Source: Thermosinus carboxydivorans Nor1 (GTDB lineage Bacteria; Bacillota; Negativicutes; Sporomusales; Thermosinaceae). Taken from it: 64,000 nt of DNA. The stretch lies in the NCBI RefSeq assembly GCF_000169155.1, contig NZ_AAWL01000006.1:62001-126000 (forward strand). The letters run 5' to 3'. The notes beneath the pieces were generated by a model, which saw only the letters and a list, made by a program, of their open reading frames with translations, was not told the origin of the DNA and did not search any database. A program made the translations under genes and the position numbers. Positions 5,841 through 35,183 of the stretch are shown here, piece after piece. Within the stretch, counting starts at the first letter, position 1; every line of letters starts with the position of its first letter.

Positions 5841-5918
5841 GCCCGCCCCCAAAAACGAAAAACAACCGCCAACAGCAAAAACGTTATTTTGCATCTGGTC
5901 GGTTGCACTACTTGCTCG

Positions 5919-11233: not shown

Positions 11234-11326
11234 TTATTTTTTCTTGCTATTTGCTCTTTTATACTCTATAATTTTCTTATAACTACATAATATGACAAAA
11301 GACCGAAAATTTGGAGGTGCACGGCC

Positions 11327-11608: not shown

Positions 11609-11629
11609 GTCCGGGAAGAAGGTCAGCTG

Positions 11630-12010
11630 ATGTATATTTCACTATATGACCTCGGACTGATTATTTTGTTTTGTCTGGCGTTGGTAGCCGGTTATTATCT
11701 CATCGTCACTCTCCGAGCCATACTGGCCGTTACCCGAACTATTGCTGCCATTATCGACAGCCGGCGCAGCGCCCTGGAAAAATCCATCGAACTCTTGCCG
11801 GAAATCTTAAATAATACCAATGAAGCTATTGTTGCCGTAAAAACAACCGCCGAGCCGGTCAGCTCTCTGGCCCGTTACCTTGAGAGCAACCTGACCGAAA
11901 CCGCGGACAATTTCGAGCGGCTGGCCGAAACGGTGCTGTTATATGCCCGCTGGGCCGCAGAAATAATAAAACAAGTTATGGCTCTATTGTCTAAAAAGGG
12001 CGATAAATAA
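11630..12010 (+). CDS. Small membrane-anchored protein, DUF948-like
   Basis: 126 residues: one N-terminal membrane helix (LGLIILFCLALVAGYYLIV) followed by a long helical, heptad-rich cytoplasmic or periplasmic region. This organisation resembles DUF948 proteins, which commonly sit beside YtxH genes, but no diagnostic motif was found, so the name is tentative. The ribosome site is GAAGGTC. It is the second and last gene before the terminator. Confidence 0.7.
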   Translation: MYISLYDLGLIILFCLALVAGYYLIVTLRAILAVTRTIAAIIDSRRSALEKSIELLPEILNNTNEAIVAVKTTAEPVSSLARYLESNLTETADNFERLAETVLLYARWAAEIIKQVMALLSKKGDK

Positions 12011-12027
12011 TTACCCAGTAAATGACT

Positions 12028-12063
12028 AAAAGCGGCTGGTGGTTTAAACCACCAGCCGCTTTT
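12028..12063 (+). terminator. Rho-independent terminator after the YtxH operon
   Basis: Perfect 15-bp inverted repeat (12028-12042 with 12049-12063) around the loop TTTAAA, GC-rich core and T tail, 17 bases after the stop of the DUF948-like gene. It marks the end of ordinary chromosome before the accessory island. Confidence 0.9.
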
Positions 12064-12191
12064 ACCTGGCTTCACCATCATCCCCTGATATAGTCGCAAA
12101 TCCCGACTTTGACAGTAAAACGCCATTTTTAGGGGGTTCAGGGCTCGAAAAGCCAATGATTTCAATAGTAATAATCAAATTGCTTTTTTTT

Positions 12192-12253
12192 GGAAAGCCT
12201 TCGGTAAAGAGTTTGAGCAGCCACCTCAAAGAGTCCTGACCGAAGGCTTTTCC
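12192..12253. repeat. Long imperfect hairpin at island edge
   Basis: GGAAAGCCTTCGGT at 12192-12205 is complementary to ACCGAAGGCTTTTCC at 12239-12253 (one bulged T). Inside, TTTGAG and CTCAAA form a second stem around CAGCCAC. It lacks a T tract on the 3' side in either direction, so it is not a standard terminator. It lies between the YtxH operon and the decayed gene and may be a mobile-element end or a structured RNA. The remaining bases from 12064 to 12305 show no gene. Confidence 0.5.
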
Positions 12254-12305
12254 ATTCCTCTGTTTTCATAATTAACCGAATTTTCCACAATTGATTTCCA
12301 TTATC

Positions 12306-12712
12306 CTATTTGGCCATTGATTTTGAGCAAGTCCAGGTCAAAAAATGTGAGCGGAAACATTTTACCTCATCCTTATACATTTCTTCATAACACCATGTAC
12401 AAACAGATGCAGGTGGAAGCTCCCAATTTTTAACTTTAGTATCATCCCTAAAAAATCGGGCGGAGTTGCATAGCACCTAATCTTTTATTTCCCGAAAGCG
12501 TTGATACTATAACAAAATAGGGGAATAAAATCAATATCATTGCAACTTTTCCCTTCGTTTTCTTCCTCCAAGTCCGTATCTTTATTTTCTCCGACCATGT
12601 CCCCAGGAAAGGAATACCTGCCTGAACAATATATATTTTCCCTCGGTTCTTTACACAAATGACCGTTCCACCCATTATCATGCCAGGCAAGCCTGGCTGA
12701 AAGATGTTTCAT
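12306..12712 (-). pseudogene. Frameshifted, truncated gene of a large accessory protein (SARLAWHDNGWNG N terminus)
   Basis: A good ribosome site (GAGGTGT) precedes the ATG at 12712. The reading frame begins MKHLSARLAWHDNGWNGHLC, followed by PxxNxYCxxxxSxPGD-like spacing. I recall this N terminus from large helicase/ATPase-type proteins in restriction and defence loci, but cannot confirm the family. After about 75 codons the frame breaks at FGK, continues in a second frame (GNKRLGAM) and a third (CNSARFFRDD to SMAK, stop at 12306), and the remaining gene is missing. Three consecutive frames of matching character show decay, not chance. Confidence 0.55.
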
Positions 12713-12826
12713 GATTTTGACACCTCACAAATCTTTAATGAGCAGACCCCATAGCCCATTTATTGAAAACTACCTGGTCAAAGCAAAAAGCTTCAACCAG
12801 GTATTCACAGTACATAGCAAACTTCA

Positions 12827-15800
12827 TTATTTGACACCGATCTTCTGTAAAAAGTCATCATAGTTTTTTGCCTGTTTAAATTGTACATCGTTTGCAACAG
12901 CTTTAAAATGAAGCTCCCCGCACCGTATTTTTGTCGTTTCAACTTTATTTAAATCATTTTTATCCTTATCTATCTTGGTTTCAACAATAAAGAAAAGCCT
13001 CGCCGTGTTATTGTCCCCTTTATAAATTACCGCCCAGTCAGGCGAATACTCTCCGTAAGGAGTATCGATTACAAAACCGCCTTTTTTGAGTTTAGTATAA
13101 AGGAGCACATTTTCATCCGCATCAAGCCTCTTGGCAAACTCCAGTTCACCTTTGCTGTCAAATTTATAATACTTATGAACTGCCCTCCGACTTTCTGGAT
13201 TGGTTTTAAAGACAAGGCTTGCCGCATCATCGAGCATACTTCTATCGATCTGCTCGGTTTCAAAGATAGTGGATTCATCAAATATATATCCGTCAATTGC
13301 CTCGTATCTGATAACCCCTTGAGCCATGAAATCGGTCAGCTTTTCCTGGAGCCTCTGCGTTACGAAGTCAAGGATATCCTGGTTTTTCAGCATGTCCTTC
13401 TTCTCAAGTCTTGAAATAATCCTGTATATGGCAAGACGGGGAAGCATGGTATGGTACATAATATAATTGATAATCTCAAATTCGCTTTTCCCTGTTTCCA
13501 TCCCCTCAAGCTCGTCAAAAAGTTGTTGTACAGATGGATCCGCCAGGCGGAATTTTTTTAACTCGTCAAATTCTGCTTTTCCTGTCTCAATATGGTATTC
13601 ATACCTTATGCGTTTATACCGAAGAGCTTCATCTAACTCCGATACACATTCTTCTATAAACGCCTTATTATCGATCTTCACCTGGTACATGGTTCGCTGC
13701 GACATCCGCTTGCTTAACTCTTTCAGCAGTTTATCGAAATACTCCTCGGAAATATAGCTGTGCTTGCCATTTTCTACAGGTTCTTCATCTCCGTTCTTGA
13801 TCGGAATCTTTCTGGTACCCTTGGCAAGCATCGCTTCAACAAACTTTTCCTTCAACATGATACTGTGTTCCTGGAGGGTTTCATTAGTGAAAGTAATGGT
13901 TTCAATTTTCCTGGCATCTCTGGTAAGGACACCATCATTATTGATAATCCCCTGCTCTAAAAGTTCCTGCTTAAAGAGTTCTGCTAGCTCCATAATCTTG
14001 TTTTCAGGAATACCAGCGTTTTTAAGCGTAGTATAGATTACATCATAGGTAACCTCATCCTTGTTAAATCCAGCCTGTTCGTTAAAATCCTGCTGGAGCG
14101 CCGCTGCGAAATGGTCGTAATAATCATTGGCAATGACGGTCAGTTCATTTACTTCACTATCTGTGCAGCGGTTACCATATATATCAACAGGAAGCCTTAA
14201 ACCTCTACCGATCTCCTGCTTTTTGGCAATATCGGAACCGCTCTTCTTCAGAGTACAGAGAGTGAACACATTGGGATTGTCCCAACCTTCCCGCAGGGCG
14301 GAGTGGGAGAAAATAAAAGCCAAAGGCTCTTCAAAGGAAATCAGTTCGTCCTTTTTCTCCAGGATCAGCTCAATCCCCCTGTCAATATCCTCCTGGGATT
14401 TGGCTTTCAACTTTTCTTCATCCATAATGTTTTCCCAGTTTTCGATCTCAACCGCATTCTTATTTTTATCAACGGCGAAATAGCCTTCCCTGACTCTGTA
14501 AACATCCTTGTATTCCTTAAATAGCTCTGGATACTCCTTAAATACCTTATTCCACCTGTCATCAGTAATTATCTTGGCATATTCTTCATCAAAAATTCTC
14601 AGATATTCCCCTCGGCCATCGGGGGCGCTGCTGTCCCTGTATTTATTTACAGCATCAATGAAGAAAAGGGTGAGTACCTTTATTTTATGTCCTTTTCTCA
14701 GGATTTTGTACTGCTTATCCAGGTGGCTCTTAATGGCAAGCCTGATCTGGATCCTTATTATTTCTTCCTCACTCATATTTACATTGCTTTCCCCGACAGC
14801 AAGCTCCAACACATCATCCCACTTGCCAATCTTAAGCTTTTTCAGCTTATGGGGATCTTCCATGACAATCATGTTTCGATATTGGGCAAGGTTGCCCGAG
14901 CACTCATACAGGGAATCTCCGCCGCGGACTTTGAATTGTTTCGTACGGATAACCCCGCCCTGTTCAACACAAAATATCTCGATTTTGGCATACAAATCCT
15001 TGGTAAACTCCACATAGCGGATATAGGGGTAATCTTTGGGTATGGTGCCATGCACCGTCTTAACCTCAATCTTTTTAACCAGGTCATTCTGGTAAGCGTC
15101 ATAGGAATCCAGTTTATATACCTGGTTGAAAAGCCGTTTATGGGTGGCAGAGTATCTCAGTATAAATAAAGGGTTAAGCATTTCAATGGCCGTAAGAGAA
15201 GCGCTCTTTTTCTTTGCAGTACCTTCAATCTTTTGCGGCTCATCGATAATAACAATAGGGCTTATGTACTTGATATCCTCCCAGAGAATTTGGCCGTATT
15301 CGTCTGCCTGGCGGATTTTATTGGTGTCCTTGTTAAAAGCCTGGATGTTCATCACCACTATGCTTAAATCCCTGCTTTCCACAAAGCTGCTGACTCTGCC
15401 CAAATTATTTGAATCATAGACAAAAGCGTGGTTCTTTATGTCAAGCCCGTCGTAGAGGGCCTTGAAATGTTCCCTTAACATTTCAATACTCTTCTCAACG
15501 CCTTTTCTGATAGCGATGCTGGGTACAACAATCATAAACTTAGTAAAACCATAAGTCTTGTAAAGCTCCAAGATAGTCCTCAAGTAAACATAGGTTTTGC
15601 CTGTACCCGTTTCCATTTCAATTGTAAAGTTGTTACCCTTCAGCTCATTATCCATAAACAGCATGTTTCTACGCTGAACTTCTTGGAGATTCTTTAAAAG
15701 CCTTGATGGTTTCACAATTTGAGGATTGCGGACGGGGTCACCTTCGCCAATCTTCTTTATTCTGTTAACATTGCGGTATATCGTTCCTTCGTCCTGGCGG

Positions 15801-15892
15801 CTGACACCTTTAAAAAGGTCAACCACTGAATAAATGGCATCAAGCTGGTATTTCAGTTTGTCATCAAATTGAAAGTTAATACGGCTGGCCAC
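12827..15892 (-). CDS. Type III restriction enzyme, Res (helicase-nuclease) subunit
   Basis: 1021 residues, usual Res length. SF2 motor motifs in order: Walker A METGTGKTYVY (near residue 93), DEAH-like box IIDEPQKI (near 216), SAT motif RYSATH, and motif VI QEIGRGLRLP. The C terminus holds a PD-(D/E)xK nuclease core (SPDWAVIY, then FIVETKID). Res translocates or switches on DNA after Mod recognises unmethylated sites and then cleaves. The GTG start follows GGGGGTGG. It starts 12 bases after the Mod stop, in the same operon. All key residues look intact. Confidence 0.93.
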   Translation of the reverse strand: MASRINFQFDDKLKYQLDAIYSVVDLFKGVSRQDEGTIYRNVNRIKKIGEGDPVRNPQIVKPSRLLKNLQEVQRRNMLFMDNELKGNNFTIEMETGTGKTYVYLRTILELYKTYGFTKFMIVVPSIAIRKGVEKSIEMLREHFKALYDGLDIKNHAFVYDSNNLGRVSSFVESRDLSIVVMNIQAFNKDTNKIRQADEYGQILWEDIKYISPIVIIDEPQKIEGTAKKKSASLTAIEMLNPLFILRYSATHKRLFNQVYKLDSYDAYQNDLVKKIEVKTVHGTIPKDYPYIRYVEFTKDLYAKIEIFCVEQGGVIRTKQFKVRGGDSLYECSGNLAQYRNMIVMEDPHKLKKLKIGKWDDVLELAVGESNVNMSEEEIIRIQIRLAIKSHLDKQYKILRKGHKIKVLTLFFIDAVNKYRDSSAPDGRGEYLRIFDEEYAKIITDDRWNKVFKEYPELFKEYKDVYRVREGYFAVDKNKNAVEIENWENIMDEEKLKAKSQEDIDRGIELILEKKDELISFEEPLAFIFSHSALREGWDNPNVFTLCTLKKSGSDIAKKQEIGRGLRLPVDIYGNRCTDSEVNELTVIANDYYDHFAAALQQDFNEQAGFNKDEVTYDVIYTTLKNAGIPENKIMELAELFKQELLEQGIINNDGVLTRDARKIETITFTNETLQEHSIMLKEKFVEAMLAKGTRKIPIKNGDEEPVENGKHSYISEEYFDKLLKELSKRMSQRTMYQVKIDNKAFIEECVSELDEALRYKRIRYEYHIETGKAEFDELKKFRLADPSVQQLFDELEGMETGKSEFEIINYIMYHTMLPRLAIYRIISRLEKKDMLKNQDILDFVTQRLQEKLTDFMAQGVIRYEAIDGYIFDESTIFETEQIDRSMLDDAASLVFKTNPESRRAVHKYYKFDSKGELEFAKRLDADENVLLYTKLKKGGFVIDTPYGEYSPDWAVIYKGDNNTARLFFIVETKIDKDKNDLNKVETTKIRCGELHFKAVANDVQFKQAKNYDDFLQKIGVK

Positions 15893-15904
15893 GGTTCCAC
15901 CCCC

Positions 15905-17869
15905 TTAAATGAACTCAACCCTGTAGGCCTTTTTCTTTTCGCCGCTGTTCTTTTTCATCTGGGCTTCAAGCCTGAGCATGGTGTTGGTTTTAAGGGTTAT
16001 GTCATCGCCGAAAGCGCTGTCGCGGAAGATTATCTTCATGGGCATCGGTTCTATGGTCGCAATTTTATCAATAATACTTTCGGTTACATTCTCCTCAAGG
16101 CAGACTACCACCGTATCGGCAAAAATATAGGTACGTTCGCCGATCTCAGACAGCTTTTCCACTTTTGCAGACAGCGGAATATCCCTGTGCCTTAACAATA
16201 TCTCATAAACCACATCGATGTCGGTAAAGCCTGGGTTGAAGTCAAGCCTGTCTTTATCTGACATCATGCTTTCTTCCAAGGTCATGTTTTCAGACTTGAT
16301 TGCCTCGCTAAACCAGCGGATGTTAGTATCCGCTACCCTGAAGACCTTAAAGCCTATGTCCAGATTTTCAATGCCTTCTTTATCCTTATTTTCTTCTTTT
16401 ATCTTTTCCCCAGCCCTGCGGATACGTTCTTTGCCGATTTCACATATATTTTTAAATCCTGCCTTATATGCTTCACTTTTTTCGTCACATGGTTCGGGAA
16501 GCTGCACCATGATAAACTTACGGTTGCCTCCGTCTTCGGCATTAAGCTGCATAACTGCGTGGGCAGTAGTGGCAGAGCCAGAAAAGAAGTCCAAAACTGT
16601 AAATTCTTTATTAAAATAGCCAATTGTATTAATAAGGTACTTTAATAAAGAAACAGGTTTTGGATAATCCAATATATTTTCTACATTAAATATTGATAAC
16701 AATTCTTGGTAAGCATCTTCATTTGTTCCAACACTCATTTTATTGTCTAATATATCTACAGGTCTCTTAATTTTCTCATCCTGATCCGCTCTAAATACAT
16801 TAAACCCAAATTTTGACGATAAGGAAACTCTAGTACCCAATTCTAATTCTTCGTTTAGCTTCGATTGTGTCCAGACAAATGGGCCAGTTACAGTTATTTC
16901 ATTTATAACCAAATTATTTTTTATAATAATATCTGTCTCAAAAAGCAATGAAGATGTACCTTCTCCATAAACACCCGCTTGATAAATCCCATCATTAAGC
17001 GTAGTTTCAACTTTTTTTGCAGGAAATACTAAAGTCTTCGGAGCATTAGTTCTTTTTACTAATGGTTGCCATTTATTACTATATGCTTCTTCTCCAAACA
17101 ACTCAATTTTTAAAGCATTTTTTCCAAATAGCAAAATATATTCAACCATATTTCTAATTGTTTTCGATAAATGACTACCCTTTTTCTTTTTAACCCATGT
17201 AAAACAAGCAATAAAATTTTCTTCCCCAAAGATCTCATCACAAATCTTCTTTAAATTGTGTACTTCATTATCATCAATACTAATAAATATAACCCCATCT
17301 TCCGTCAACAAATCCTTTGCCACCTTCAGTCTCGGATATATCATCGACAGCCAGTTAGAGTGAAATCTGCCATTGCTTTTCTGATTAACAATAAGCCGCT
17401 CTCCATATTCATCCTTTTCTCCCTCTAACAAAGCATTTTCTTCTTCGCTGACCTTGAAATCGTCCCTGTAAATAAAATCATTACCCGTATTATAAGGCGG
17501 ATCTATGTAAATCATTTTAATCTTGTTATAATAGCTGTTTCGGAGCAGCTTCAAAACCTCCAGATTATCCCCTTCAATGTACAAATTCTCAGTAGTGTCG
17601 GGGTTTTTACTATCCTCTGGAATGTATTTCAGCGTCCGTCCTACAATATCCGTGTTTGCCAGCCGCTTTGCATCCTCTTTTCCCGCCCAGCCAAGCTCAT
17701 AGCGTTCGGACAGTTTTTCGCTGGCGGTTTCAAACTGGCCCAATTCAGCTTTCAAAGCCTCAAAATCAACCTGCCCGTCTTTCACTACTGACGGGAAAAC
17801 TTGCGCCAGTTTTTTTACATTTTCACTGATCGGATTAAATATCTCTTTCTGCACTTTGGGAAACTCCAC
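15905..17869 (-). CDS. Type III DNA methyltransferase, Mod subunit
   Basis: 654 residues. The beta-class order of motifs is present: catalytic DPPYNTGNDF at residues 123-132, target-recognition region in the middle, and the AdoMet motif DFFSGSATTAHAV near residue 425. Mod methylates adenine (N6) on one strand and specifies the Res subunit's site. The segment 16620-17230, covering the recognition domain, is visibly more AT-rich than both flanks, with different codon use, suggesting replacement by recombination. The GTG start follows TAGGAAA. It lies 12 bases after the DUF4391-like gene stop. Confidence 0.93.
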   Translation of the reverse strand: MEFPKVQKEIFNPISENVKKLAQVFPSVVKDGQVDFEALKAELGQFETASEKLSERYELGWAGKEDAKRLANTDIVGRTLKYIPEDSKNPDTTENLYIEGDNLEVLKLLRNSYYNKIKMIYIDPPYNTGNDFIYRDDFKVSEEENALLEGEKDEYGERLIVNQKSNGRFHSNWLSMIYPRLKVAKDLLTEDGVIFISIDDNEVHNLKKICDEIFGEENFIACFTWVKKKKGSHLSKTIRNMVEYILLFGKNALKIELFGEEAYSNKWQPLVKRTNAPKTLVFPAKKVETTLNDGIYQAGVYGEGTSSLLFETDIIIKNNLVINEITVTGPFVWTQSKLNEELELGTRVSLSSKFGFNVFRADQDEKIKRPVDILDNKMSVGTNEDAYQELLSIFNVENILDYPKPVSLLKYLINTIGYFNKEFTVLDFFSGSATTAHAVMQLNAEDGGNRKFIMVQLPEPCDEKSEAYKAGFKNICEIGKERIRRAGEKIKEENKDKEGIENLDIGFKVFRVADTNIRWFSEAIKSENMTLEESMMSDKDRLDFNPGFTDIDVVYEILLRHRDIPLSAKVEKLSEIGERTYIFADTVVVCLEENVTESIIDKIATIEPMPMKIIFRDSAFGDDITLKTNTMLRLEAQMKKNSGEKKKAYRVEFI

Positions 17870-17881
17870 TTTCCTAACCCC

Positions 17882-18610
17882 CTATGCCTTCTCGATAATT
17901 TTGGCAAACTCGGCGTACAGCCTTTTTAACTCTGAATTAATCCTTGCGCTTTCCGCCACAGTCTTTGCGAATTTCTGCTCTTTTTTTAGCTGTTCTACCC
18001 GTTTAAGCCTGTCATAGAGCTTTAACATATCGTCCCTGTTATACCATACCTTTGAGACAAGCAATGCCCTCGTCCCAGACCATAAGGAAAGGTTGGATAT
18101 GATATACGCCTTAATCATCATTTCAAGGTAAAAGTCCAGCTTGTTGCCCCTGTTTTGGATTCTGTCAAACTCAATGTACTGCCGCATCATAGTATTTGTT
18201 TCGTCTGCAAACTGCATGGAAGTAGGGGAGGAGTAAACCATATCCTCGATAACCACCTGCGTCCTGTCGTTTAAGTTCAACCTTTTGTGACAAAAACAAA
18301 AAACTTGACAATTGGTATGGTCATAAAATCTGATTACGCATAACGGTTTGACCAACCGCTGCATGATGTTTCCTACAAAGTTGGCATTTTTCAACTCGGT
18401 CAAACGGACACTGAAAAACAGAATCGCCTGGCAGTCGTATTCGTCATTGATCAGCGAGGGGATGTCCTCCCCTGCAATCTGATATAACAGCTTTATTTCA
18501 ATTACTGCTTCCCTGAACCTTTTTTTCTCCTTTTGGGTCAGGTCAGCAGTCATAAATGTCTTTATGGTAAATGTCTTATTTATCTCATATACACTGGGTA
18601 TCGCCAGCAT
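17882..18610 (-). CDS. DUF4391-like protein of the helicase/type III locus
   Basis: 242 residues from the ATG at 18610, after GGGGTGA; the frame extends upstream but overlaps the helicase gene. It starts MLAIPSVYEINKTFTIKTFM, then has a mixed alpha/beta domain with a conserved-looking IEIKLLYQIAGE segment (Glu-x-Lys) that resembles a nuclease-type motif, and a C-terminal Lys/Glu coiled-coil (RLKRVEQLKKE...). From memory this is DUF4391, a family found beside such helicases and Mod/Res genes; function unknown. It lies 10 bases after the helicase gene stop, so it belongs to the same operon. Confidence 0.7.
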   Translation of the reverse strand: MLAIPSVYEINKTFTIKTFMTADLTQKEKKRFREAVIEIKLLYQIAGEDIPSLINDEYDCQAILFFSVRLTELKNANFVGNIMQRLVKPLCVIRFYDHTNCQVFCFCHKRLNLNDRTQVVIEDMVYSSPTSMQFADETNTMMRQYIEFDRIQNRGNKLDFYLEMMIKAYIISNLSLWSGTRALLVSKVWYNRDDMLKLYDRLKRVEQLKKEQKFAKTVAESARINSELKRLYAEFAKIIEKA

Positions 18611-18620
18611 AGCTTCACCC

Positions 18621-21600
18621 CTATTCCACCACCAGGAAAGATATAAGCTCAAAATCATCGGAGCTTGAGTTGGCAAATTCGTTGTTATATCCTCCGAAGT
18701 CAAAGATGGTCATTTCCGCTTTTTTATCCTCATCCCCCTGGATTGCTTCAATCGCCTTATTGAGCAACCTTGAATAAAAGGACATATCCTCGGCATTTTT
18801 GGTACGGCTGTTAAATTTTTTGAACAACTCGGGATCAGGCTTTGCTTTGCCATAAGCAATCTTCCTGAACTCCCTTAAGGCCTCACGGGCATTGGCACTG
18901 CCGTAGTAAATCTCACCATCATTGCTGATATACATTACATAGTACGGGTAAAGCGAGCTTTCGTTTGCTGGTTTTGCCACCTCGTTTTGATGCCTAAAGC
19001 AAAAGATGCAGCCCTTCTTTTCCCCTTCAGTTACAGAGTACACACCCCTGGGTACCCGCATAATCTCTGTGTTATTCTTGATATATCTCGAAAGCTCATA
19101 AATGTAATCATTCATATTCAGGTCGGTCAGGGAGATGTTATCATTCAGTTCATCAATTTCGATAACCTCTTTCTGCAACCGTTCCAGCTGTTTTTTTCTG
19201 AAGAGAAAATCATTCATTTCAGGGGAGAGAAAATCCTCATCCCCTGAGGCCGTTAAGTTTACCGCCATCATTTTCCCTTTTACCCTCTGTTCAAGCTGTA
19301 AATAATCATTGAGAGCCAGATTGGGAAAGAAGTTGATCATAGCAATCTTTTTGTTTTGGCTGCCAATGCGGTCTATCCTGCCGAAACGCTGGATAAGCAC
19401 AACGGGATTCCACTGGATGTCATAGTTAATGACGGCATCGCAGTCCTGCAGGTTTTGTCCCTCGGAAATACAGTCAGTGGCAATAAGCACATCGATCTGC
19501 TCATGCTTCGGCAGGTCCTGACCCAGCTTAGACTTTGGCGAAAAGTGTCGCAGAATGGTGTTAAACTCACAGCGGATATTTTTCATCGTTGTCCGCGGAT
19601 CTCCAGAACCAGTAATGCATGCTACATTAATTCCATGTTTTGAAAGCTCATCAGCAATGCTGTCATACAGATAATTAGCAGTATCAGCAAAAGCAGAAAA
19701 GATAAGCATTTTTCTGTTTCCTGGGTTATAAGGGGTCTTGATGATCTTGTTAACAATAATTTCTTCAAGCTTTTTCAGCTTTGCGTCCCTTTTTTCATTC
19801 AATACCTGTAAAACATTCCTGTACAAACCTTCCAACATTTCCTTGTCGTAGTATAAATCCTCCAGGAAATCCGCTGCAATCAAATGTTCCACCTTAATCT
19901 CATATTTATAGTCAAGGGTAACATCTTCTTCAACATATTCTTCTCCCGCAAGCTCCACTTCTCCCGAATTACAGCGTGATATGACCTCAATATAGCTGTC
20001 AATTCTGGCGATAAGCCTCCTGATGGTTTCACCAAAAGCAAAAACAGAGCTTTCGAGGCGTTTGAACAAGTTAAATCTATGCAAGCGGGCATTGATAAGC
20101 TCGCGATTTTCGTGGTAGAACAACACCCTCTCCCCATAGACGGTCTGGTATTTTTTACGGTAATATTCCTTGTATTCGGACTTTATGTAGGACATAGGAG
20201 AATAAACCGCCAGTTTCAATGACTCCAATATTTCATTCGTTTCCGCAAAATTAAGCAGTTCTCCTTTTGTATCTATTTCTGGATAATATGTCTCTGGCGG
20301 TAGTTTTTCTGGAAATTTGCCAATATTGTCATTTCCGTAGTATCCAGTAATATGTTTTCTGCTCCGAGAAATAGTAACCATCTCCAGCAGTTTATAGAAG
20401 TCCGCGGGAAGCCTGTCCAGGAGATCGTTTTTTGACCGTTCTTCAGTTTTAAGCCAGTCATTGATTTCCTTCTGCGTTTTGCGGAGTAGGTTGGATATAC
20501 TTGGTATTCCCGCTTCTTCAAAGGCATGGTCTCTATCGGCAGTGATAATGCTTATTTGGTTTTTCAGGTCTATGAGCGAGTTGTTGACGGGAGTTGCCGA
20601 CAGCATCAGTACCTTTGTCCCATGTCCCTTTTTAATAATATCATTCATGAGTTTCATATAGCGGCTCATATGTTCAATGTCTTCGTTTCGGTTGCGGAAG
20701 TTATGGGATTCGTCGATGACCACCAGGTCGAAATTGCTCCAGTTCACACGGGATAAATCTATACCGCTTCTGGAATAACCCTTTGTCCTTGTCAAATCTG
20801 TATGGCAAAGGATTTTATAGTTAAAGTTATCCTTTATAAAGGCGTTGTCTATGTATGGGTTTTTGAAGGAATCCCAGTTATCATAGAGCTTGGCAGGGCA
20901 TAAAACCAGCACATTATCTTCCCGAAGCTCGAAGTATTTAATTACGGCCAAAGCCTCAAAGGTTTTTCCCAGACCAACACTGTCGGCAATGATGCACCCA
21001 TTGTATTTATTTATCTTTTGAATGGCGGAAACAACAGCATCTTTCTGAAAATCATAGAGACTGTTCCAGATGACAGACTTTTTAAAACCTGTTTTATCCT
21101 TTTCAAAGCGCTCCACACCACTATCAAGCTGACTGCCGAAAAGCTCTTTCAGTGTAAAATAGTACAGGAATTCGGGAGAATAGTCTTTGTAAACATAATT
21201 AAGGCTTTCAAGCAACTGTGTTTTGTAATCCTCGGTATAATCATCGCTGTTCCAGATGATATTAAATAACCTCTGAAAATGCTCAAGCTGCGATTTTTCG
21301 GTGACAGCAGAATTAAAATGGATGGGCGCCAGCTCTCCACGCTTTGTTTTCCTCGATACTTCAAGGGATGATGTGCCATGTATAGCAATCTCATCATCAA
21401 TCATGATAATGTTCCCTGTTATTTTCCCTGGGTCTTTTGCCTTACGCACATTTACATGTTTTTGGATAAAATCATACATGGATTTCGCTTTGGCAAAATG
21501 CTGGAGCTTGTTTTTCTGGATGATGTCATACGAATTAAAAAACAAGTCTGTATCGTTTTGCCTAATCTCAAACTCACGAGGCAGTTCGCGCCCAGCAGGC

Positions 21601-21785
21601 ACATAAGCAGTATTGCGTATAATAAAATTGATTTTCTCAACATTTTTAAGATTTTTGGAAAGTTCGCTAAATACCGATAATGTAAGTTTGTCATTAATGA
21701 TATTTATTTTCCTGCCCTTTCTTTCTTTTAGCACTTCATTTATTTTTGCTATCAATTGTTCATTAGAACTTATAACTTCATTCAT
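18621..21785 (-). CDS. SNF2-type SF2 helicase with degenerate PLD-like N terminus
   Basis: About 1054 residues from the ATG at 21785, 8 bases after a G-rich site; ATGs at 21803 and 21827 are less well supported. The N-terminal ~200 residues (MIDDEIAIHGTSSLEV...) resemble a degenerate phospholipase D-like domain. The motor has Walker A DSVGLGKTFEAL, DEAH-type box VIDESHNF, SATPVNNSL, and motifs V/VI (ATDCISEGQNL, QRFGRIDRIG). Proteins of this type remodel or translocate on DNA in phage-defence loci. It is the first gene of the four-gene operon that continues with the DUF4391-like, Mod and Res genes. Confidence 0.85.
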   Translation of the reverse strand: MNEVISSNEQLIAKINEVLKERKGRKINIINDKLTLSVFSELSKNLKNVEKINFIIRNTAYVPAGRELPREFEIRQNDTDLFFNSYDIIQKNKLQHFAKAKSMYDFIQKHVNVRKAKDPGKITGNIIMIDDEIAIHGTSSLEVSRKTKRGELAPIHFNSAVTEKSQLEHFQRLFNIIWNSDDYTEDYKTQLLESLNYVYKDYSPEFLYYFTLKELFGSQLDSGVERFEKDKTGFKKSVIWNSLYDFQKDAVVSAIQKINKYNGCIIADSVGLGKTFEALAVIKYFELREDNVLVLCPAKLYDNWDSFKNPYIDNAFIKDNFNYKILCHTDLTRTKGYSRSGIDLSRVNWSNFDLVVIDESHNFRNRNEDIEHMSRYMKLMNDIIKKGHGTKVLMLSATPVNNSLIDLKNQISIITADRDHAFEEAGIPSISNLLRKTQKEINDWLKTEERSKNDLLDRLPADFYKLLEMVTISRSRKHITGYYGNDNIGKFPEKLPPETYYPEIDTKGELLNFAETNEILESLKLAVYSPMSYIKSEYKEYYRKKYQTVYGERVLFYHENRELINARLHRFNLFKRLESSVFAFGETIRRLIARIDSYIEVISRCNSGEVELAGEEYVEEDVTLDYKYEIKVEHLIAADFLEDLYYDKEMLEGLYRNVLQVLNEKRDAKLKKLEEIIVNKIIKTPYNPGNRKMLIFSAFADTANYLYDSIADELSKHGINVACITGSGDPRTTMKNIRCEFNTILRHFSPKSKLGQDLPKHEQIDVLIATDCISEGQNLQDCDAVINYDIQWNPVVLIQRFGRIDRIGSQNKKIAMINFFPNLALNDYLQLEQRVKGKMMAVNLTASGDEDFLSPEMNDFLFRKKQLERLQKEVIEIDELNDNISLTDLNMNDYIYELSRYIKNNTEIMRVPRGVYSVTEGEKKGCIFCFRHQNEVAKPANESSLYPYYVMYISNDGEIYYGSANAREALREFRKIAYGKAKPDPELFKKFNSRTKNAEDMSFYSRLLNKAIEAIQGDEDKKAEMTIFDFGGYNNEFANSSSDDFELISFLVVE

Positions 21786-21997
21786 TCCGTAAGCCCCCAC
21801 CATATCTTCGCCTATTTTATGTCTCATGAATGCGTGTCAGTGAATTTTTCGGCATTACGCACATACAACCCTCTTGCAGTTTAACCTCTCTCTAATCTAT
21901 TTTGTTGCATTTTGAAATATTTGTCCGGCTATTGCTCAAATTATGTGACCGTAACCTGATTTTACTGGGCCGCTTGGCTTGACATTATTTAGGCAAT

Positions 21998-22358
21998 TTA
22001 ATGGAACTGGAATTTATCCTGTGGGATTTTTCTTTGTTCAGCCATACTTCACAACATTGGTTGCTAATTTAATTAGCTTTTCTGGCACACCTCCCCGGGT
22101 AAGAGCAGTGTCTTTCTCTCCATCTACCTGCCGCAGTTACTCTGGGCAACCTTCGGTAGCAAGGACTTTGCTTTGTAACGCAAGCTCAACCAACTGCCCC
22201 TAGCCTCATTTGCGGTTCGTTTCCCTCAGAACGAAGATTTGCCGCCGACTTCCTTAGGATCCCATCTCGCAATGGGCACCATTGTCTTAGGCTACAGCTA
22301 CTGTTACCTTCGCCGTTCGGGACTTTCACCCTAGAGACAACGCCCATGCCGAGCACAC
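21998..22358 (-). mobile_element. Truncated group IIC intron (5' ribozyme part plus start of maturase ORF)
   Basis: On the reverse strand the element starts at the group II 5' signature GTGTGC (22358), followed by CGGCATGGGCG, then the domain I blocks AGGGTGAAAGTCCCGAAC, AATGAGGCTAGG, AAGTCCTTGCT and TTACCCGGGGAGG. These match, from memory, the sequence order of the Oceanobacillus group IIC intron. A maturase ORF then begins at 22045 (MAEQRKIPQDKFQFH) but stops after 15 codons. Domains V and VI are absent. The intron starts about seven bases beyond a terminator stem, the expected target of group IIC introns. Confidence 0.85.
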
Positions 22359-22364
22359 ATTAAA

Positions 22365-22399
22365 ATAACTTCCGATAACTATAAATTATCGGAAGTTAT
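22365..22399 (-). terminator. Terminator hairpin used as intron target
   Basis: A 14-bp stem (22365-22378 with 22386-22399) around a 7-base loop, followed on the reverse strand by TTTAAT and then the intron 5' end. No gene that it would terminate remains upstream on this strand; it is probably left from a deleted gene. Confidence 0.7.
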
Positions 22400-22492
22400 A
22401 ACCGAAAATACAGTCATGAATTTTGAAACACGAGAAAAACAAAAAACAGTTCACAAATTTTATAATTTCAAATAATAGGACAACCCGCCATA

Positions 22493-22740
22493 GTAGAGTC
22501 CGTATAATTGTGTAAAAAGGAATTAACAAAAGAAGAGCCAATTCAAAATCCTCAGTTAGAATGAAGCGGCAACAACATTCAACGAGAGGTGATTTTGAAA
22601 TGGCTCAATACCAGATTAACATTGATTCGAAAATTTTGCATCAACTTTTTTAAGCAATGCAAAAGATAACGGAATACTTTCGATTAAGGCCGCCATCCGT
22701 TACGGCGGCGGCTGCCCAATACCGCCTCCGTCAGTTGAAG
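22493..22740 (+). mobile_element. IS256-family element remnant (left end and transposase N terminus)
   Basis: A terminal-repeat-like sequence at 22493-22524 (GTAGAGTCCGTATAATTGTG and on) is followed by a ribosome site GAGAGGTG and an ORF from 22600, MAQYQINIDSKILHQLF, typical of IS256-type transposase N termini, which ends at a stop after 17 codons. A second frame then reads SNAKDNG, continuing the homology after a frameshift, before all similarity is lost. The rest of the element is gone. Bases 22741-22862 show no gene. Confidence 0.7.
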
Positions 22741-22862
22741 TGTAGAGGACGTTGGGCCTTTTGAAGATACTATGAAGGAGTATATTCAGCGTTTTATAAT
22801 TGGAGAAAAGTCGTAGATTTAACTGCTGCTTAAGAACATCTAGCATTCATGTTTTTTCAAAA

Positions 22863-22898
22863 AACGCCTCCCCTTGAGCAATCTCAAGGGGAGGCGTT
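22863..22898 (-). terminator. Terminator after the VWA gene
   Basis: Perfect 16-bp GC-rich stem (22863-22878 with 22883-22898) with a 4-base loop. On the reverse strand it is followed by TTTTTTG, 8 bases beyond the stop of the VWA gene. Confidence 0.92.
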
Positions 22899-22905
22899 CG
22901 TTAGA

Positions 22906-23514
22906 CTACTTAGTTTTTCGGGGACTTAGGTATTGATTTCTTTTCTCGCATACCGCTTCGTTTACCTTTAGGTACATAGCCTCGATACCAGCAGTAGAAG
23001 CCTCAAAATTAAAGGCATTGTCAATATGAATGCCAATTTTGTCGGCTTCTTGTTCGACGTCGATATTGGCGCCGAGGAAGATAAACTCCCATCCATATTG
23101 TTCTTGCTGGCGGCGTATCAGTTCTTTAACTTTTCGGTAGGTGAATTCACGGCTGGCATTTTCCAAACCATCTGTCGTAATAACAAATATTACCTTACCG
23201 GGCCGTTCACTTTCATTGGTTTTTGACAGCCTGTAATTAACATCCACAATAGTCTTGCCAATCGCGTCGAGAAGAGCCGTACACCCGCGGACATAATATT
23301 CGTTTTCGGTTAGTTTAACACCTTTGACATCGATGCCGTTCCACAAAATTTCATATTCGTGATCAAACAAAATCACCGTAAGTAGTGTCCGCCCTTCCAA
23401 TTGGGCCTGTTTTGCGATAAATTCATTGAAACCCCTTATGGTAGACCTTTCAAGTCCCCCCATCGAACCGCTCCGGTCGAGCAGAAAAATTATTTCGGTT
23501 AAGTTGGCGTTCAA
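22906..23514 (-). CDS. von Willebrand factor A (VWA) domain protein
   Basis: 202 residues from the TTG at 23514, which sits at a proper distance from AAGGGG; a GTG at 23523 is only inside that site. A single VWA domain with a complete metal site: DRSGS (residues 13-17), Thr79 in GCTALLDA and Asp115 in ITTDGLENAS. No signal peptide, so it is cytosolic. Such stand-alone TerY-like VWA proteins usually act as metal-dependent scaffolds in stress or defence complexes. It is transcribed divergently from the HTH-like gene at 23613, across a palindromic operator. Confidence 0.88.
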   Translation of the reverse strand: MNANLTEIIFLLDRSGSMGGLERSTIRGFNEFIAKQAQLEGRTLLTVILFDHEYEILWNGIDVKGVKLTENEYYVRGCTALLDAIGKTIVDVNYRLSKTNESERPGKVIFVITTDGLENASREFTYRKVKELIRRQQEQYGWEFIFLGANIDVEQEADKIGIHIDNAFNFEASTAGIEAMYLKVNEAVCEKRNQYLSPRKTK

Positions 23515-23529
23515 ACGTATCACCCCTTA

Positions 23530-23567
23530 ACTTGTTTTGTTTGCTATAATAATAGCTAAAAACAAGT
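23530..23567. promoter_or_regulatory. Palindromic operator over divergent promoter
   Basis: ACTTGTTTT at 23530-23538 mirrors AAAACAAGT at 23559-23567 around a TATAAT at 23545-23550. It lies between the divergent VWA and HTH-like genes, as expected for autoregulation by the HTH-like product. A second small hairpin, GTCGCC/GGCGAC (23576-23592), sits just before the GGAGG ribosome site of the gene at 23613. Confidence 0.55.
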
Positions 23568-23612
23568 AAGAAGTGGTCGCCTGCGAGGCGACAATGCGGA
23601 GGTACGGCCATA

Positions 23613-24110
23613 ATGCTAAGTAAAGAAATACGCCAGGCACTCGCAGAATATGTTAATCAACATAAAAATATATACACTACATACGCTCTCCAGGACAATA
23701 CACGCGACTACGGTCTTGCTTATAGTATCGCTTACGAAGAAGTTAAAGATTTTATAGAAACCAAGCAAAAGCGAACATTTAAGCAGGTCTTATTCCATTT
23801 TATTGACAGCAAAAACATGAGCGACGCGGAAATATATCGCAAGGCAAATATCGACCGCAGGCACTTTCATAAAATCCGCTCAAAACCCGATTATCGTCCC
23901 GGCAAAAGCACGATTATCGCCATCGCCTTGGCCCTCGAACTTGATAAAAACGACACGATAACGCTGTTAAATTCCGCCGGTTATACTTTGTCGGACAGTG
24001 ACGCGTTTGATTTGGTAATCCAATTTTGCCTGGAGAAAAAAATATATGACATCCATGACGTCAATTTGGCACTGGATTTTATGGGGTTAAAACCGTTGAC
24101 TGGGTGTTAA
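23613..24110 (+). CDS. Helix-turn-helix-like protein divergent from the VWA gene
   Basis: 165 residues, GGAGG ribosome site. The middle (residues 60-125) reads TFKQVLFHFIDSKNMSDAEIYRKANIDRRHFHKIRSK..., which follows the pattern of a lambda-repressor-like HTH (AEIYRKANIDRRHFHKIRS as recognition part) and then GKSTIIAIALALELDKNDTITLLNSAGYTL, the usual closing helices of XRE-type regulators. The N-terminal 50 residues are unassigned. Probably a DNA-binding regulator of itself and of the VWA gene through the palindrome between them. Confidence 0.65.
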   Translation: MLSKEIRQALAEYVNQHKNIYTTYALQDNTRDYGLAYSIAYEEVKDFIETKQKRTFKQVLFHFIDSKNMSDAEIYRKANIDRRHFHKIRSKPDYRPGKSTIIAIALALELDKNDTITLLNSAGYTLSDSDAFDLVIQFCLEKKIYDIHDVNLALDFMGLKPLTGC

Positions 24111-24215
24111 AAAATAAGGCAGGGTAATGCTGTAAAGCTTTATTATCTATGATTGGTTTGGCCCTTTGGATTTCGCTCTCCACATGGTGCCGGTATAGCA
24201 CCTCCAGCCCACTGC

Positions 24216-24300
24216 TCAAGTGGTTTTATTGGCCACGCTCCCTTCAAAAACCTGGTGGGCAATAGGAATACCTTCAGACGTCACTAATAATCCGATGTTA
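24216..24300 (-). pseudogene. Transposase fragment (IS1634/IS4-like)
   Basis: The reverse strand reads IGLLVTSEGIPIAHQVFEG then SVANKTT and a stop. This is the conserved catalytic-core segment around the first Asp region of IS1634/IS4-type DDE transposases (LLV..EGIPIA..VFEGN). Nothing upstream or downstream continues convincingly. It is a decayed insertion sequence. Confidence 0.55.
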
Positions 24301-24372
24301 ATTTTAATTCATAATTCATAACGTTACGCATAGTTTTCATTTGATGATAAATTTCAGTGGCAAAGTTTTCGA

Positions 24373-24750
24373 TTAGCTCGCGTTCCCAGATGATATTTCG
24401 CCATTTCGCCGGTATTTGCCCACCCCGTAATAAGCTCCGGCCAGTTGACCGTATACCGCACCGGTAGTGTCGGCGTCATCCCCTAAGTTTACCGCCAGCA
24501 ATGCTCCCTCTTCAAAAGTATTCGAGTGATAAAACGCCCATAGACCACATAACCACTTCCCTTTATTTGGGGTGGTTTTTTTATTTTATTTGCAGGCATC
24601 AATGCACTCCGCGGCCGCATGGGTCGTACGAGAGCTATCAGCACAATACTTCATTGCCAACGGCGAATTATTGGCGTAGTATAACGCTACCGGGGCCAGC
24701 CGCATGATCGACCCGTTTCCGGCAATATGTGGATCTGCCATTGACGTATC
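24373..24750 (-). pseudogene. ADP-ribosylglycohydrolase family pseudogene
   Basis: Two pieces on the reverse strand are recognisable: AGNGSIMRLAPVALYYAN (24586-24750, then a stop) and [22 protein letters not shown] (24373-24510). Both are signature segments of DraG/ADP-ribosylglycohydrolases; the second holds the metal-binding Asp residues. The N-terminal ~100 residues and the stretch between the pieces are missing, and a terminator-like hairpin lies between them. The living gene would have removed ADP-ribose from a protein or nucleic acid. Confidence 0.75.
24551..24582 (+). terminator. Terminator-like hairpin inside the pseudogene
   Basis: AACCAC (24551-24556) pairs with GTGGTT (24572-24577) and is followed by T5. 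It interrupts the ADP-ribosylglycohydrolase relic, so it probably arrived with an insertion that has since been deleted. Confidence 0.5.
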
Positions 24751-24764
24751 AAAAGATATCTTGC

Positions 24765-24812
24765 TTGCCTTTTGGCAAAGCTTGATTTATAATTTTATCG
24801 AACAAATGTTCT
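24765..24812 (+). promoter_or_regulatory. SOS-controlled promoter with LexA box
   Basis: A -35 TTGCCT at 24765-24770, 17 bases, and a -10 TATAAT at 24788-24793 form a strong sigma-A promoter. CGAACAAATGTTCT at 24799-24812 matches the Firmicute LexA/DinR operator (CGAAC-N4-GTTCG) in all but the last base and overlaps the expected transcription start. It precedes the small-protein/polymerase operon by 16 bases. Confidence 0.85.
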
Positions 24813-24827
24813 TAATTGGAGGTCGCT

Positions 24828-25058
24828 ATGGGTAAGGTTTTTGTCCAAATTACGGCTGAGCATAATGTAAACGGAGAAATCCGCCCCCTGTCCCTGCGCT
24901 GGACCAACGGGCGCATCTACCCGATCGACCGAATCCTGGATGTCCGGCCGGCCGCTTCCCTTAAAGGCGGTGGACAAGGCATGCGGTATACCTGCCGGAT
25001 TGCCGGCAAGGAAGTGTATTTGTTCTGCGACGAAGGCCGCTGGTTTATTGAAAGGTAA
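24828..25058 (+). CDS. Small conserved protein co-expressed with the Y-family polymerase
   Basis: 76 residues from the ATG at 24828, after TTGGAGGT; an upstream TTG in frame lies within that site. The protein is a compact beta-rich domain (MGKVFVQITAEHNVNGEIRPLS, RWTNGRIYPIDRILDVR, GMRYTCRIAGKEVYLF, DEGRWFIER). I do not recognise an enzyme motif. It is the first gene of an SOS operon and lies 21 bases before the polymerase, so an accessory role in translesion synthesis is a fair inference. Confidence 0.8.
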   Translation: MGKVFVQITAEHNVNGEIRPLSLRWTNGRIYPIDRILDVRPAASLKGGGQGMRYTCRIAGKEVYLFCDEGRWFIER

Positions 25059-25079
25059 GCGCCGTTTGGGGGATGTAGC

Positions 25080-26321
25080 GTGGATCGCGTTATTCTTCAC
25101 GTCGATCTGAATAATTTCTATGCCAGCGTCGAGTGTCTCTACCGGCCTGAACTACGGGATAAACCGGTCGCCGTATGCGGCGATGCCGAAGCCCGTCATG
25201 GCATTGTCCTTGCCAAAAACTACCCGGCCAAAGCCTATGGCATCAAGACCGGCGATGTCATTTGGGAAGCAAGGCAAAAGTGCCCTGGCCTGGTGATTGT
25301 ACCGGCAGACTTTGGCAAGTATCTGCGCTTTTCCCGGCTGGCCAGGGCAATATATGACGATTACACCGATCAGGTTGAAAGTTTTGGCATTGACGAGGCC
25401 TGGCTGGACGTTACCGGCTCGGTTGGCTTGTTCGGAGATGGCGAAGCGATCGCCGCCGCCATTCGCCGCCGGGTGCGTGAAGAGCTTGGCATAACGGCGT
25501 CGGTCGGCGTTTCGTGGAACAAAGTTTTTGCCAAACTGGGCAGCGATCGCCAAAAGCCGGACGCTACCACCGTTATTACCAAAGAGAATTTTCGCGAGAT
25601 AGTGTGGCCATTGCCGGTGGAGGAACTATTATATGTCGGCCGGTCAACCCGGCGCAAACTGGCCAACCGGGCGATATTCACCATCGGCGATCTAGCCCGG
25701 CGCAATGTTGAAAACTTAAGGCTCCTGCTGGGCATTTGGGGCGAAACCCTTTGGGGCTTTGCCAATGGCCTCGATACATCGCCGGTACGCCATAGCGGCG
25801 AGGAAAGCATTGTTAAATCCATCGGCAACAGTACGACGACCGTGCGGGACCTGGTTAACATCGAAGATGTCAAGCTGATTGTTTATGTTTTGGCCGAAAG
25901 TGTCGCCGCCCGGCTGCGCAGACACGGCCTAAAATGCACGATTGTGGCGATTAGCGTCCGGGATACGGAGCTTTACTCATTCGAAAGACAAGGCAAGCTC
26001 GGCAGTCCGACTTTCGTTTCCGGCGATATTGCCCACAAAGCCTTGGAACTCTTTACCGCCAACTATCGCTGGGAAAAGCCGGTCCGCAGCCTGGGCGTAC
26101 GGGCCGCCGGCCTGGTGACGGCAAGTGGCAACGTCCAGCTTGATCTGTTTAATCCGGACAAAACAAAGGTCGAAAAGCTGGAACGCACCGTCGATGCCAT
26201 CAGGCGGCGGTTTGGCCATTACAGTATCCAACGGGGAGCGATGCTCATCGATCGGCGGCTAACCGGCTTTAATCCGAAGGACGAGCATGTAATTCATCCG
26301 GTTTCTTTTTTCGGGCGATGA
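25080..26321 (+). CDS. Y-family DNA polymerase (Pol IV / UvrX-like)
   Basis: 413 residues from a GTG after GGGGGAT. Catalytic acids are in place: Asp9 (HVDLNNFYASVE) and Asp105-Glu106 (SFGIDEAWLDVT). The fingers motif is AKNYPAKAYGIKTG and the little-finger domain follows after residue 245. QLDLF at residues 353-357 is a beta-clamp binding peptide. It performs error-prone bypass of DNA lesions. Transcription from the LexA-box promoter upstream makes it part of the SOS response. It ends 2 bases from the convergent gene at 26324. Confidence 0.93.
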   Translation: MDRVILHVDLNNFYASVECLYRPELRDKPVAVCGDAEARHGIVLAKNYPAKAYGIKTGDVIWEARQKCPGLVIVPADFGKYLRFSRLARAIYDDYTDQVESFGIDEAWLDVTGSVGLFGDGEAIAAAIRRRVREELGITASVGVSWNKVFAKLGSDRQKPDATTVITKENFREIVWPLPVEELLYVGRSTRRKLANRAIFTIGDLARRNVENLRLLLGIWGETLWGFANGLDTSPVRHSGEESIVKSIGNSTTTVRDLVNIEDVKLIVYVLAESVAARLRRHGLKCTIVAISVRDTELYSFERQGKLGSPTFVSGDIAHKALELFTANYRWEKPVRSLGVRAAGLVTASGNVQLDLFNPDKTKVEKLERTVDAIRRRFGHYSIQRGAMLIDRRLTGFNPKDEHVIHPVSFFGR

Positions 26322-26323
26322 GC

Positions 26324-27076
26324 TCACCAATCAATATGGTCGGGATATTCCACGCCACTAATCCTTATGTCCTCGATTGGACAGTTATATTCTTGCGCCG
26401 CCTGTAAAATCTCATTCCGCAAATCGAGATATTCACTGCCCGGCTCCGTCAGAAGTTTTGCCATTTTCGATAGGTTTTTCAGGCGTTTTTCTTTACTCAT
26501 CTTCAAAAACCGGCAATTGAGCAGATCCACATACTGCGTAGCATAGTTGTAACACACGATGTATTCTTTATTCAGGCTGCCCATCATCCGGCTGTATACA
26601 CCGGCAGGAACCACGCTTTTAAGGCATTTGGCAACCGCCGCTTGCAACATACGCACCTGGGCGATCGAGTCGTCCCAAATGTTACGTCTGTTTAGCATTA
26701 TGTCATAAGTTGTCTTGGCCTGCTTGCGGGCATAAAGTTTGACAAAATCGTTTAGCGCGACCATAACGAATAACATTTCCGGCCACAGCACATTAATCTT
26801 CAGATAAACGTTTTTACTGCTGGCAATGACCGCCATTTGCCGCATTTTGTCGGCATCCATACCATTGTCGACAAATTCGATGTCGCGATGCCCCATCAGC
26901 GCGTGTCGCAAGTCATAACAAACCGCTAGCACCCTAAGGCCGGCACCAGACAATGCTGGCTCCTCCTCTTCGTCGCCAACAACGGTATGCAATGCATCGT
27001 ACAGCGCTTTAAAATCCAAGTAATCGCCGTAAATCGCCACTCCTGCATTATTGGGGGTATTGGTCACATATATCAC
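26324..27076 (-). CDS. Conserved protein of unknown function (possibly DUF6904)
   Basis: 250 residues from a GTG; a weak AAAGGA lies upstream. The opening MIYVTNTPNNAGVAIYGDYLDFKALYDALH resembles what I recall as DUF6904 (low certainty). The rest is mostly helical, with Met/Leu-rich stretches, WPEMLFVMVALNDFVKLYARKQ, and a basic C-terminal helical region. No enzyme motif, signal peptide or membrane segment is seen. It is convergent with the polymerase gene and has no operon partner. Confidence 0.65.
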   Translation of the reverse strand: MIYVTNTPNNAGVAIYGDYLDFKALYDALHTVVGDEEEEPALSGAGLRVLAVCYDLRHALMGHRDIEFVDNGMDADKMRQMAVIASSKNVYLKINVLWPEMLFVMVALNDFVKLYARKQAKTTYDIMLNRRNIWDDSIAQVRMLQAAVAKCLKSVVPAGVYSRMMGSLNKEYIVCYNYATQYVDLLNCRFLKMSKEKRLKNLSKMAKLLTEPGSEYLDLRNEILQAAQEYNCPIEDIRISGVEYPDHIDW

Positions 27077-27328
27077 GCCGGTGTTCGTCCTTTCTTTTCA
27101 TATATTTTTCCATAATATTTAGAGCTGTAGCAAAGCCAATGGGGCAGGAAATAAAAAATCAGTCGATAATTATTGGCCATCCATGCATATTAATACCAGC
27201 CATCTTTATAACTTATATTTGACGATTGATTCAGTGCACTAGCCAATGGTTGCCACCAAAGAAGTAATTCGTGGCGCCGCCGTTATTGTAACTATAAAAG
27301 AGTTATGCTGTTAAAATGTGACCACTCT

Positions 27329-27355: not shown

Positions 27356-27388
27356 ACACACCAATTAGGGCTTGATTCTTTTTTGGAC

Positions 27389-27420
27389 AATTCCTTTTTA
27401 CACAATTATACTGACTTTAC
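27389..27420 (-). repeat. IS256-like terminal inverted repeat
   Basis: Read on the reverse strand this 32-base sequence (GTAAAGTCAGTATAATTGTG and on) differs at only two positions from the one at 22493-22524, in inverted orientation. It is the other end of an IS256-type element. No matching target duplication was found next to the two copies. Confidence 0.7.
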
Positions 27421-34918: not shown

Positions 34919-34933
34919 GACAATTCTCCTCTC

Positions 34934-35036: not shown

Positions 35037-35183
35037 ATATAGCTCACCTGAATTATTCGCTATTTTTGTACATAATCCTTCTAAATGGTTTTTCTTGAAA
35101 AAATTTCCGGTTTCTCATTTTTTACTATATCTACAGGAAAACCACGATTCATCAGCGAATTGCTAAGTGAAAGGAGTGTCGCC

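Follow-up and report, generated by a model that had tools for sequence, protein, structure and literature searches.

A dead group IIC intron remnant beside a palindrome of probable recombination type in Thermosinus carboxydivorans

Introduction

A short locus in the genome of Thermosinus carboxydivorans Nor1 raises the question of what kind of hairpin a now broken group IIC intron had chosen as its target. According to published descriptions, terminators are where group IIC introns insert (PMC4424553, crediting Robart 2007), attC sites being used less often (PMC4424553, PMC7923331). An earlier note on this DNA, made from the letters alone, had read the locus as a dead group IIC intron remnant placed directly behind a terminator and marking the upstream edge of a restriction island. 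Here, we follow up this reading within a window of 64,000 nucleotides, i.e. the whole stretch of DNA that was analysed (contig NZ_AAWL01000006.1, positions 62,001 to 126,000), and by comparison with other genomes, plasmids and viral sequences.

Results

Searching the window with cmscan, we found the group II D1-D4 RNA model RF02001, which we take to be the RNA model for the IIC type of group II introns, matching over its full length (model positions 1-170) at 22276-22104 of the minus strand, where it scores 116.4 bits (E-value 3.5e-23) against a gathering cut-off of 32. The 5' end of the intron is a G at 22358 of the minus strand, from which the intron starts with GTGTGCTCGGCATGGG; its plasmid relatives from Alicyclobacillus (79-80% identity) and Carboxydocella (84% over 219 bp) start with GTGCGCCCGGCATGGG. 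Six nucleotides (TTTAAT) separate this 5' end from the hairpin at 22365-22399, a gap that the earlier note had put at about seven bases. We aligned 22 introns and scored every column for complementarity to the 3' end bases of the exon with no position preset. A single EBS1 column stands out (mean 0.875 versus 0.774 for the next best) and shows co-variation with the exon (GCGA/TCGC, AAAA/TTTT, GAAA/TTTC). In the window intron, this top column holds the EBS1 GUUA (22176-22179, minus strand), which pairs with the IBS1 TAAT, the final four bases of the 5' exon (22359-22362, minus strand), in 4 of 4 positions, one of the pairs being G.U. As this pairing falls on the best column of the unguided scan, 22358 is the true insertion junction.

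Domain V (RF00029) gives no match even at E<=10 within 18000-25000, and the window intron can be aligned to those of Anoxybacillus (L272) and Peribacillus (L274) as far as intron position 341, corresponding to about 22018 of the window, resulting in a 5' fragment of ~341 nt (22018-22358, minus strand). The annotated reverse transcriptase (RT) genes in these two introns begin ~550 nt into the intron, so the window intron is cut ahead of its maturase gene. A maturase ORF surviving for 15 codons, as claimed before, had to be rejected: the aligned stretch near the break includes GCTGAACAA...CACAGG, a part of the ribozyme that does not code for protein, the counterpart in Anoxybacillus reading GCTGAACAATCAGAAGTCAGCAGAGG. 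The fragment combines the D1-D4 RNA, an EBS1-IBS1 pairing of the 3-4 bp type characteristic of group IIC and an upstream hairpin, and has lost the domains V-VI and the maturase of an active element, the break lying before the ORF. The covariance-model search proposed in the earlier note, which found the D1-D4 RNA and no domain V, bears out its view that the element is a group IIC intron and dead. These findings support the window element being the 5' remnant of a group IIC intron lying directly behind a hairpin in the IIC manner; the intron remnant by itself is ordinary.

An intact copy of the same intron acting in trans, for which the earlier note had proposed a search, was rejected. RF02001 is found at five places in the window genome, whereas RT and domain V are each matched once, within a single intron at ~49.2-51.1 kb of contig C12. 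This is the sole intact IIC intron and is a different one, being only 69% identical to the window intron over the matched part. By eye, more group IIC copies lie on contigs C3 (L017), C10 (L018) and C12 (L019), two of them truncated and one having a maturase gene with an internal shortening; beside its one intact copy, the genome thus has several dead IIC introns. Just past the intron break, a 69-bp repeat (21916-21984) has a second copy, 90% identical, on contig C5 (16840-16908), which by eye follows a T-box antiterminator-like sequence; the plasmids searched gave no match to this repeat.

The hairpin behind which the intron lies is a putative dif-type palindromic recombination site at 22367-22397, with 12-bp arms (22367-22378 and 22386-22397) around the spacer CTATAAA (22379-22385), the 31-bp core reading AACTTCCGATAA-CTATAAA-TTATCGGAAGTT. 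The arms reach 14 bp when the bounds are taken as 22365-22399. This 12-7-12 layout agrees with the palindrome of ~30 bp with a short centre expected of a dif/Xer site. Positions 22367-22401, loop included, are identical in 35 of 35 bp to a sequence of Anaerospora hongkongensis (L113), a member of another family of the same order, in which the copy lies 38 bp from a recombinase ORF. The letters of the palindrome returned only unrelated papers among the literature matches listed. No other IIC intron was seen by eye at this palindrome in the 20-nt flanks of 138 further sites, the window intron being the only one beside such a palindrome known here.

The palindrome belongs to a family of sites described by the pattern ACTTCCGATAA-N6..8-TTATCGGAAGT, which matches at least 118 stretches in species genomes, the hosts among the matches listed including Veillonella, Selenomonas, Anaerovibrio, Megasphaera, Rhizobium, Saccharothrix, Asaia, Piscirickettsia and others; with ten-bp arms, it is present in 18 viral stretches. 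The spacer is 7 nt long in 104 of 139 site loci, 6 nt in 32 and 8 nt in 3, counts that are not independent since the loci include repeated or near-identical sources (the window itself; L032 and L113; L180 and L182; L178 and L190; L183 and L189; L185 and L114). Six shuffled versions of the arms gave 0-3 matches each within the fetched loci at <=5 mismatches, and the reversed pattern was found in 1 of 40 genomes versus 24 of 40 for the real pattern, 20 of those 40 having been chosen for carrying the site. Two genomes of the same order as the window genome, G013 and G015, do not contain the exact window site and have a variant palindrome beside the recombinase gene: in G015 (L303:2513-2543) it reads AACTAGTGATAA-CTATAAA-TTATCACTAGTT, with the spacer kept and the outer arms changed, and in G013 it has the same spacer as in G015 and one arm mismatch.

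Four loci contain pairs of 6-nt-spacer sites with mutually inverted spacers ~155-201 bp apart (L064:3644-3872, L143:6811-6994, L125:6253-6470, L166:7813-7995), two of which (L064, L143) have a recombinase ORF nearby; these pairs, which share the arm sequence of the family, are likely to be invertible switches. Sites also occur in viral sequences. The Acutalibacteraceae phage NatCom_991 (L049:6001-8384) has the palindrome just upstream of a gene resembling the R gene of type I restriction systems (EcoEI_R_C, HSDR_N), and a further viral contig (L181:6746) has the site in a near-identical context. In the viral contig L191, a phage-type integrase adjoins the site (58-1100), and the left flank is identical in 56 of 57 positions to the Veillonella tobetsuensis chromosome, the right flank being unrelated (17 of 60), which suggests that this element apparently integrated exactly at a Veillonella dif-type site.

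The recombinase of Anaerospora is a 331-aa tyrosine recombinase containing PF00589 (68 bits) and PF02899 domains; among PDB structures, it matches XerD and Cre weakly. Columns R, K, H, R, H and Y, presumably the catalytic residues of tyrosine recombinases, are invariant in 14 recombinase sequences. Using an HMM that had the Anaerospora enzyme as its starting point, we found a recombinase ORF in the fetched stretches of 65 of the 139 site loci and none in those of the other 74. The distance to the site is <=250 bp for 43 of 69 recombinase ORFs and <=400 bp for 46, of which 37 have the site on their 5' side. A profile of the 14 sequences (A1), searched in 36 genomes, separates an upper class scoring 438-526 bits in 15 genomes from XerC/XerD-like proteins scoring <=72 bits; three genomes, one of them rhizobial and two actinobacterial, lie between the classes at up to 142 bits. 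In 10 of the 15 genomes (Veillonella, Megasphaera, Selenomonas, Mitsuokella, Anaerovibrio), nothing but this recombinase matches at E<=1e-8, as would be expected if XerC and XerD are absent there; G013, G014 and G015 have this recombinase together with proteins at XerC/XerD level.

On the complete chromosome of Veillonella parvula, the site lies at 1,114,393 of 2,146,482, the GC skew ranging from +0.098 to +0.186 in the ten 20-kb windows to its left and from -0.076 to -0.175 in the ten to its right. The skew also changes sign at the Anaerospora site (+0.055 to -0.123) and at the recombinase with the variant palindrome in G013 (+0.103 to -0.086) and G015 (+0.090 to -0.066). A wider count, based on 8-kb loci with >=1 kb per side, covered 78 of the 118 genome loci fetched, those included having spacers of 6 or 7 nt. 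The left skew is higher at 50 of 58 loci with a 7-nt spacer, with a flip from plus to minus at 33 of 58 and from minus to plus at 1 of 58; random splits give plus to minus in 34%, as the loci lie around the terminus anyway. Sites with a 6-nt spacer have no skew bias (10 of 20), so some members of the family are not dif. At the 20-kb scale, six of ten further genomes have the plus-to-minus flip, Mitsuokella, Selenomonas ruminis, Kutzneria and Saccharothrix being the four that do not. By recombinase adjacency, near-single copy and skew flips in some genomes, we show the site marking the replication terminus in several Negativicutes, where the adjacent enzyme would catalyse recombination.

These data bear on the explanation closest to the earlier note, according to which the palindrome is nothing more than an intrinsic terminator left by a gene that has since disappeared, and the intron targeted a terminator as group IIC introns ordinarily do. 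The hairpin is stable with a fold of -18.0 kcal/mol, passes a loose terminator-like scan with 4 G-C among its 16 pairs and a T-rich tail, and most other 5' exons of the 22-intron scan by eye resemble ordinary terminator hairpins. However, neither conservation of the loop nor recurrence beside recombinase genes is required of terminators, the identity to Anaerospora includes the spacer, the G015 recombinase adjoins the same spacer with different outer arms, the GC skew flips at the site in relatives, and the window has no gene ending just upstream of the hairpin. We regard this explanation as unlikely. Since sequence and loop recur beside tyrosine-recombinase genes and at GC-skew flips elsewhere, the window hairpin is probably a conserved recombination-type palindrome and not a plain terminator; of an intron lying behind a terminator, the hairpin and the short distance stand and the term terminator has become doubtful.

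The palindrome of the window differs from its relatives in position. The window genome holds exactly one site at <=3 mismatches, and its GC skew does not flip there (-0.104 on the left and -0.098 on the right over 40 kb), so that the terminus location seen in V. parvula, Anaerospora, G013 and G015 does not extend to it. Its best matches to profile A1, at 52 and 44 bits, are XerD and XerC as judged by the NCBIfam cut-offs; a cognate recombinase was not found with this profile in the assembly, which is 96.56% complete. The lack of both the skew flip and the cognate recombinase leads us to call the site an orphan. The congener (G001, 99% complete) has neither site nor recombinase, and at its syntenic place positions 11046 and 26324 of the window lie 11 bp apart, which places site, intron and restriction operon within a variable 15-kb segment (11046-26324), the G+C content of which is lower between 12 and 24 kb. 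The operon (12827-21827, minus strand) encodes a type III restriction-modification system (Res, Mod), a DUF4391 protein and an HKD/SNF2 helicase. The intron indeed lies just upstream of this operon, as the view of an island edge implied, and is nevertheless inside the variable segment. A second site at the other end of the island was not found in the window genome at <=3 mismatches, whereas an IMEX is flanked by two dif-type sites. Half-sites in the window do not exceed the level of shuffled sequences (8 versus a mean of 4.8, with 19 of 100 shuffles reaching 8), and a XerCD-type dif pattern was found in 0 of 40 genomes and is hence uninformative for the window genome.

Further features lie in and beside the island. 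Blocks 24756-27108 and 12178-12353 adjoin in the congener (C6:82063-84624), so the island seems to be assembled from pieces lying elsewhere in this relative. An insertion-sequence-like repeat fragment, transposase-like by eye, lies at 22493-22668 (plus strand; 98% identical over 177 bp to contig C1 of the same genome), and 49-bp arms at 22493-22541 and 27372-27420 are inverted and 84% complementary, being probably the ends of related insertion sequences. Elsewhere in the window, a c-di-GMP-II riboswitch (5888-5971, minus strand) is located upstream of genes that by eye are pilus-assembly-like, and a c-di-AMP riboswitch lies at 34921-35044 (minus strand).

Alternatively, the site could be the working dif of this genome, with the recombinase falling into an assembly gap or XerC/XerD acting on the site. 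The exactly single copy and the incomplete assembly speak for this; against it, the skew remains without a flip within 40 kb on each side, and the nearly complete congener lacks the site, the recombinase and, at the syntenic place, the island, making this alternative still less probable than a terminator. That the site is the relic of a DNA-inversion switch, comparable to the inverted 6-nt-spacer pairs near Lachnospiraceae recombinases (L064 and L143 each hold two such sites, 201 and 157 bp apart), is very improbable given the 7-nt spacer in the window, a genome without a second copy and the exact match to the Anaerospora terminus site.

Discussion

The sequence family, the recombinase adjacency, the terminus position in several genomes and the orphan status in the present assembly are observed directly, and we consider it quite probable that the locus as a whole is a group IIC intron at an orphan dif-type palindrome of a Cre/Xer-like system, which arrived with mobile DNA, the intron being broken later. 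According to this model, the RNA of a mobile group IIC intron would have reverse-spliced 6 nt behind the palindrome, guided by the EBS1-IBS1 pairing that can be read from the sequence, with the palindrome presumably supplying the hairpin part of the target for recognition by the ribonucleoprotein. The palindrome itself would belong, as an orphan site of the dif type, to a Cre/Xer-like system with a single recombinase, in which the recombinase would act on the site and the system would resolve dimers. Lying off the terminus in a variable 15-kb island, the window site probably came on mobile DNA. Afterwards, the intron would have lost everything past ~341 nt including the maturase gene and domain V, as a consequence of which it can neither splice nor move.

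The classic terminator-targeting IIC introns, as presented in PMC4424553, resemble the window intron in the RF02001 RNA, the 4-bp EBS1-IBS1 pairing and the hairpin just upstream; in contrast to these, the window hairpin is a recombination-type palindrome and only ~341 nt of the intron are left. The IIC-attC introns of integrons (PMC7923331, PMC4424553) are closer in that their hairpin is a tyrosine-recombinase site. However, attC is described there as an imperfect folded integron site with the target TTGT/T, whereas the window has a perfect dif-type palindrome and TAAT and is a single instance, with no intron lineage dedicated to such sites.

On the side of the recombinase, PMC9765430 describes the XerL/dif system of Legionellales as having perfect arms of 10-12 bp, a terminus location and a mobile element hijacking it, xerL being restricted to Legionellales. 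The system found here is alike in its single recombinase, uninterrupted inverted arms, ~30 bp length, terminus position and hijack by a mobile element, and judged from sequence it appears to be a dif/Xer system that works with one recombinase and is similar to XerL/dif, with a presumed Xer role. It differs in occurring in Negativicutes and other phyla and in its site usually lying beside the recombinase gene, the likeness to XerL being drawn from its description. A Rickettsiella genome (G048) has the site and 0 profile matches at E<=1e-8, and we therefore do not assign the recombinase family to XerL. XerS/difSL and XerH/difH are named single-recombinase systems (PMC9765430, PMC3025954), which share one recombinase and a dif adjoining its gene, the arms here differing by being perfectly symmetric; the XerS model scores the recombinase far below its cut-off. 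Extra dif-like sites on mobile DNA are also a feature of IMEX (PMC9765430) and pdif modules (PMC12907356); in contrast to both, the island of the window yielded neither a second site nor an integrase. Among the literature matches listed, which left most subscription journals outside their scope, no title or abstract deals with an intron at dif or with the present site in Negativicutes.

The palindrome, rather than the intron remnant, is the part worth following. Much of the Negativicutes and scattered members of other phyla may possess an undescribed Cre-like dimer-resolution system with stray mobile copies and a third hairpin target for IIC introns, a proposition that we see as evenly balanced. 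Its perfectly palindromic dif would often lie beside its own recombinase gene, and IIC introns might, with the same even balance, have this third target besides terminators and attC. If true, the missing chromosome-dimer-resolution site would be named for common bacteria of gut and mouth, e.g. Veillonella and Selenomonas, and single-recombinase dif/Xer systems would reach past Legionellales, streptococci and Campylobacter/Helicobacter. It would also provide a new symmetric pair of site and recombinase of the Cre/lox sort, which is directly assayable, and would suggest that any suitable palindrome, recombination sites included, can meet the hairpin requirement of group IIC introns.
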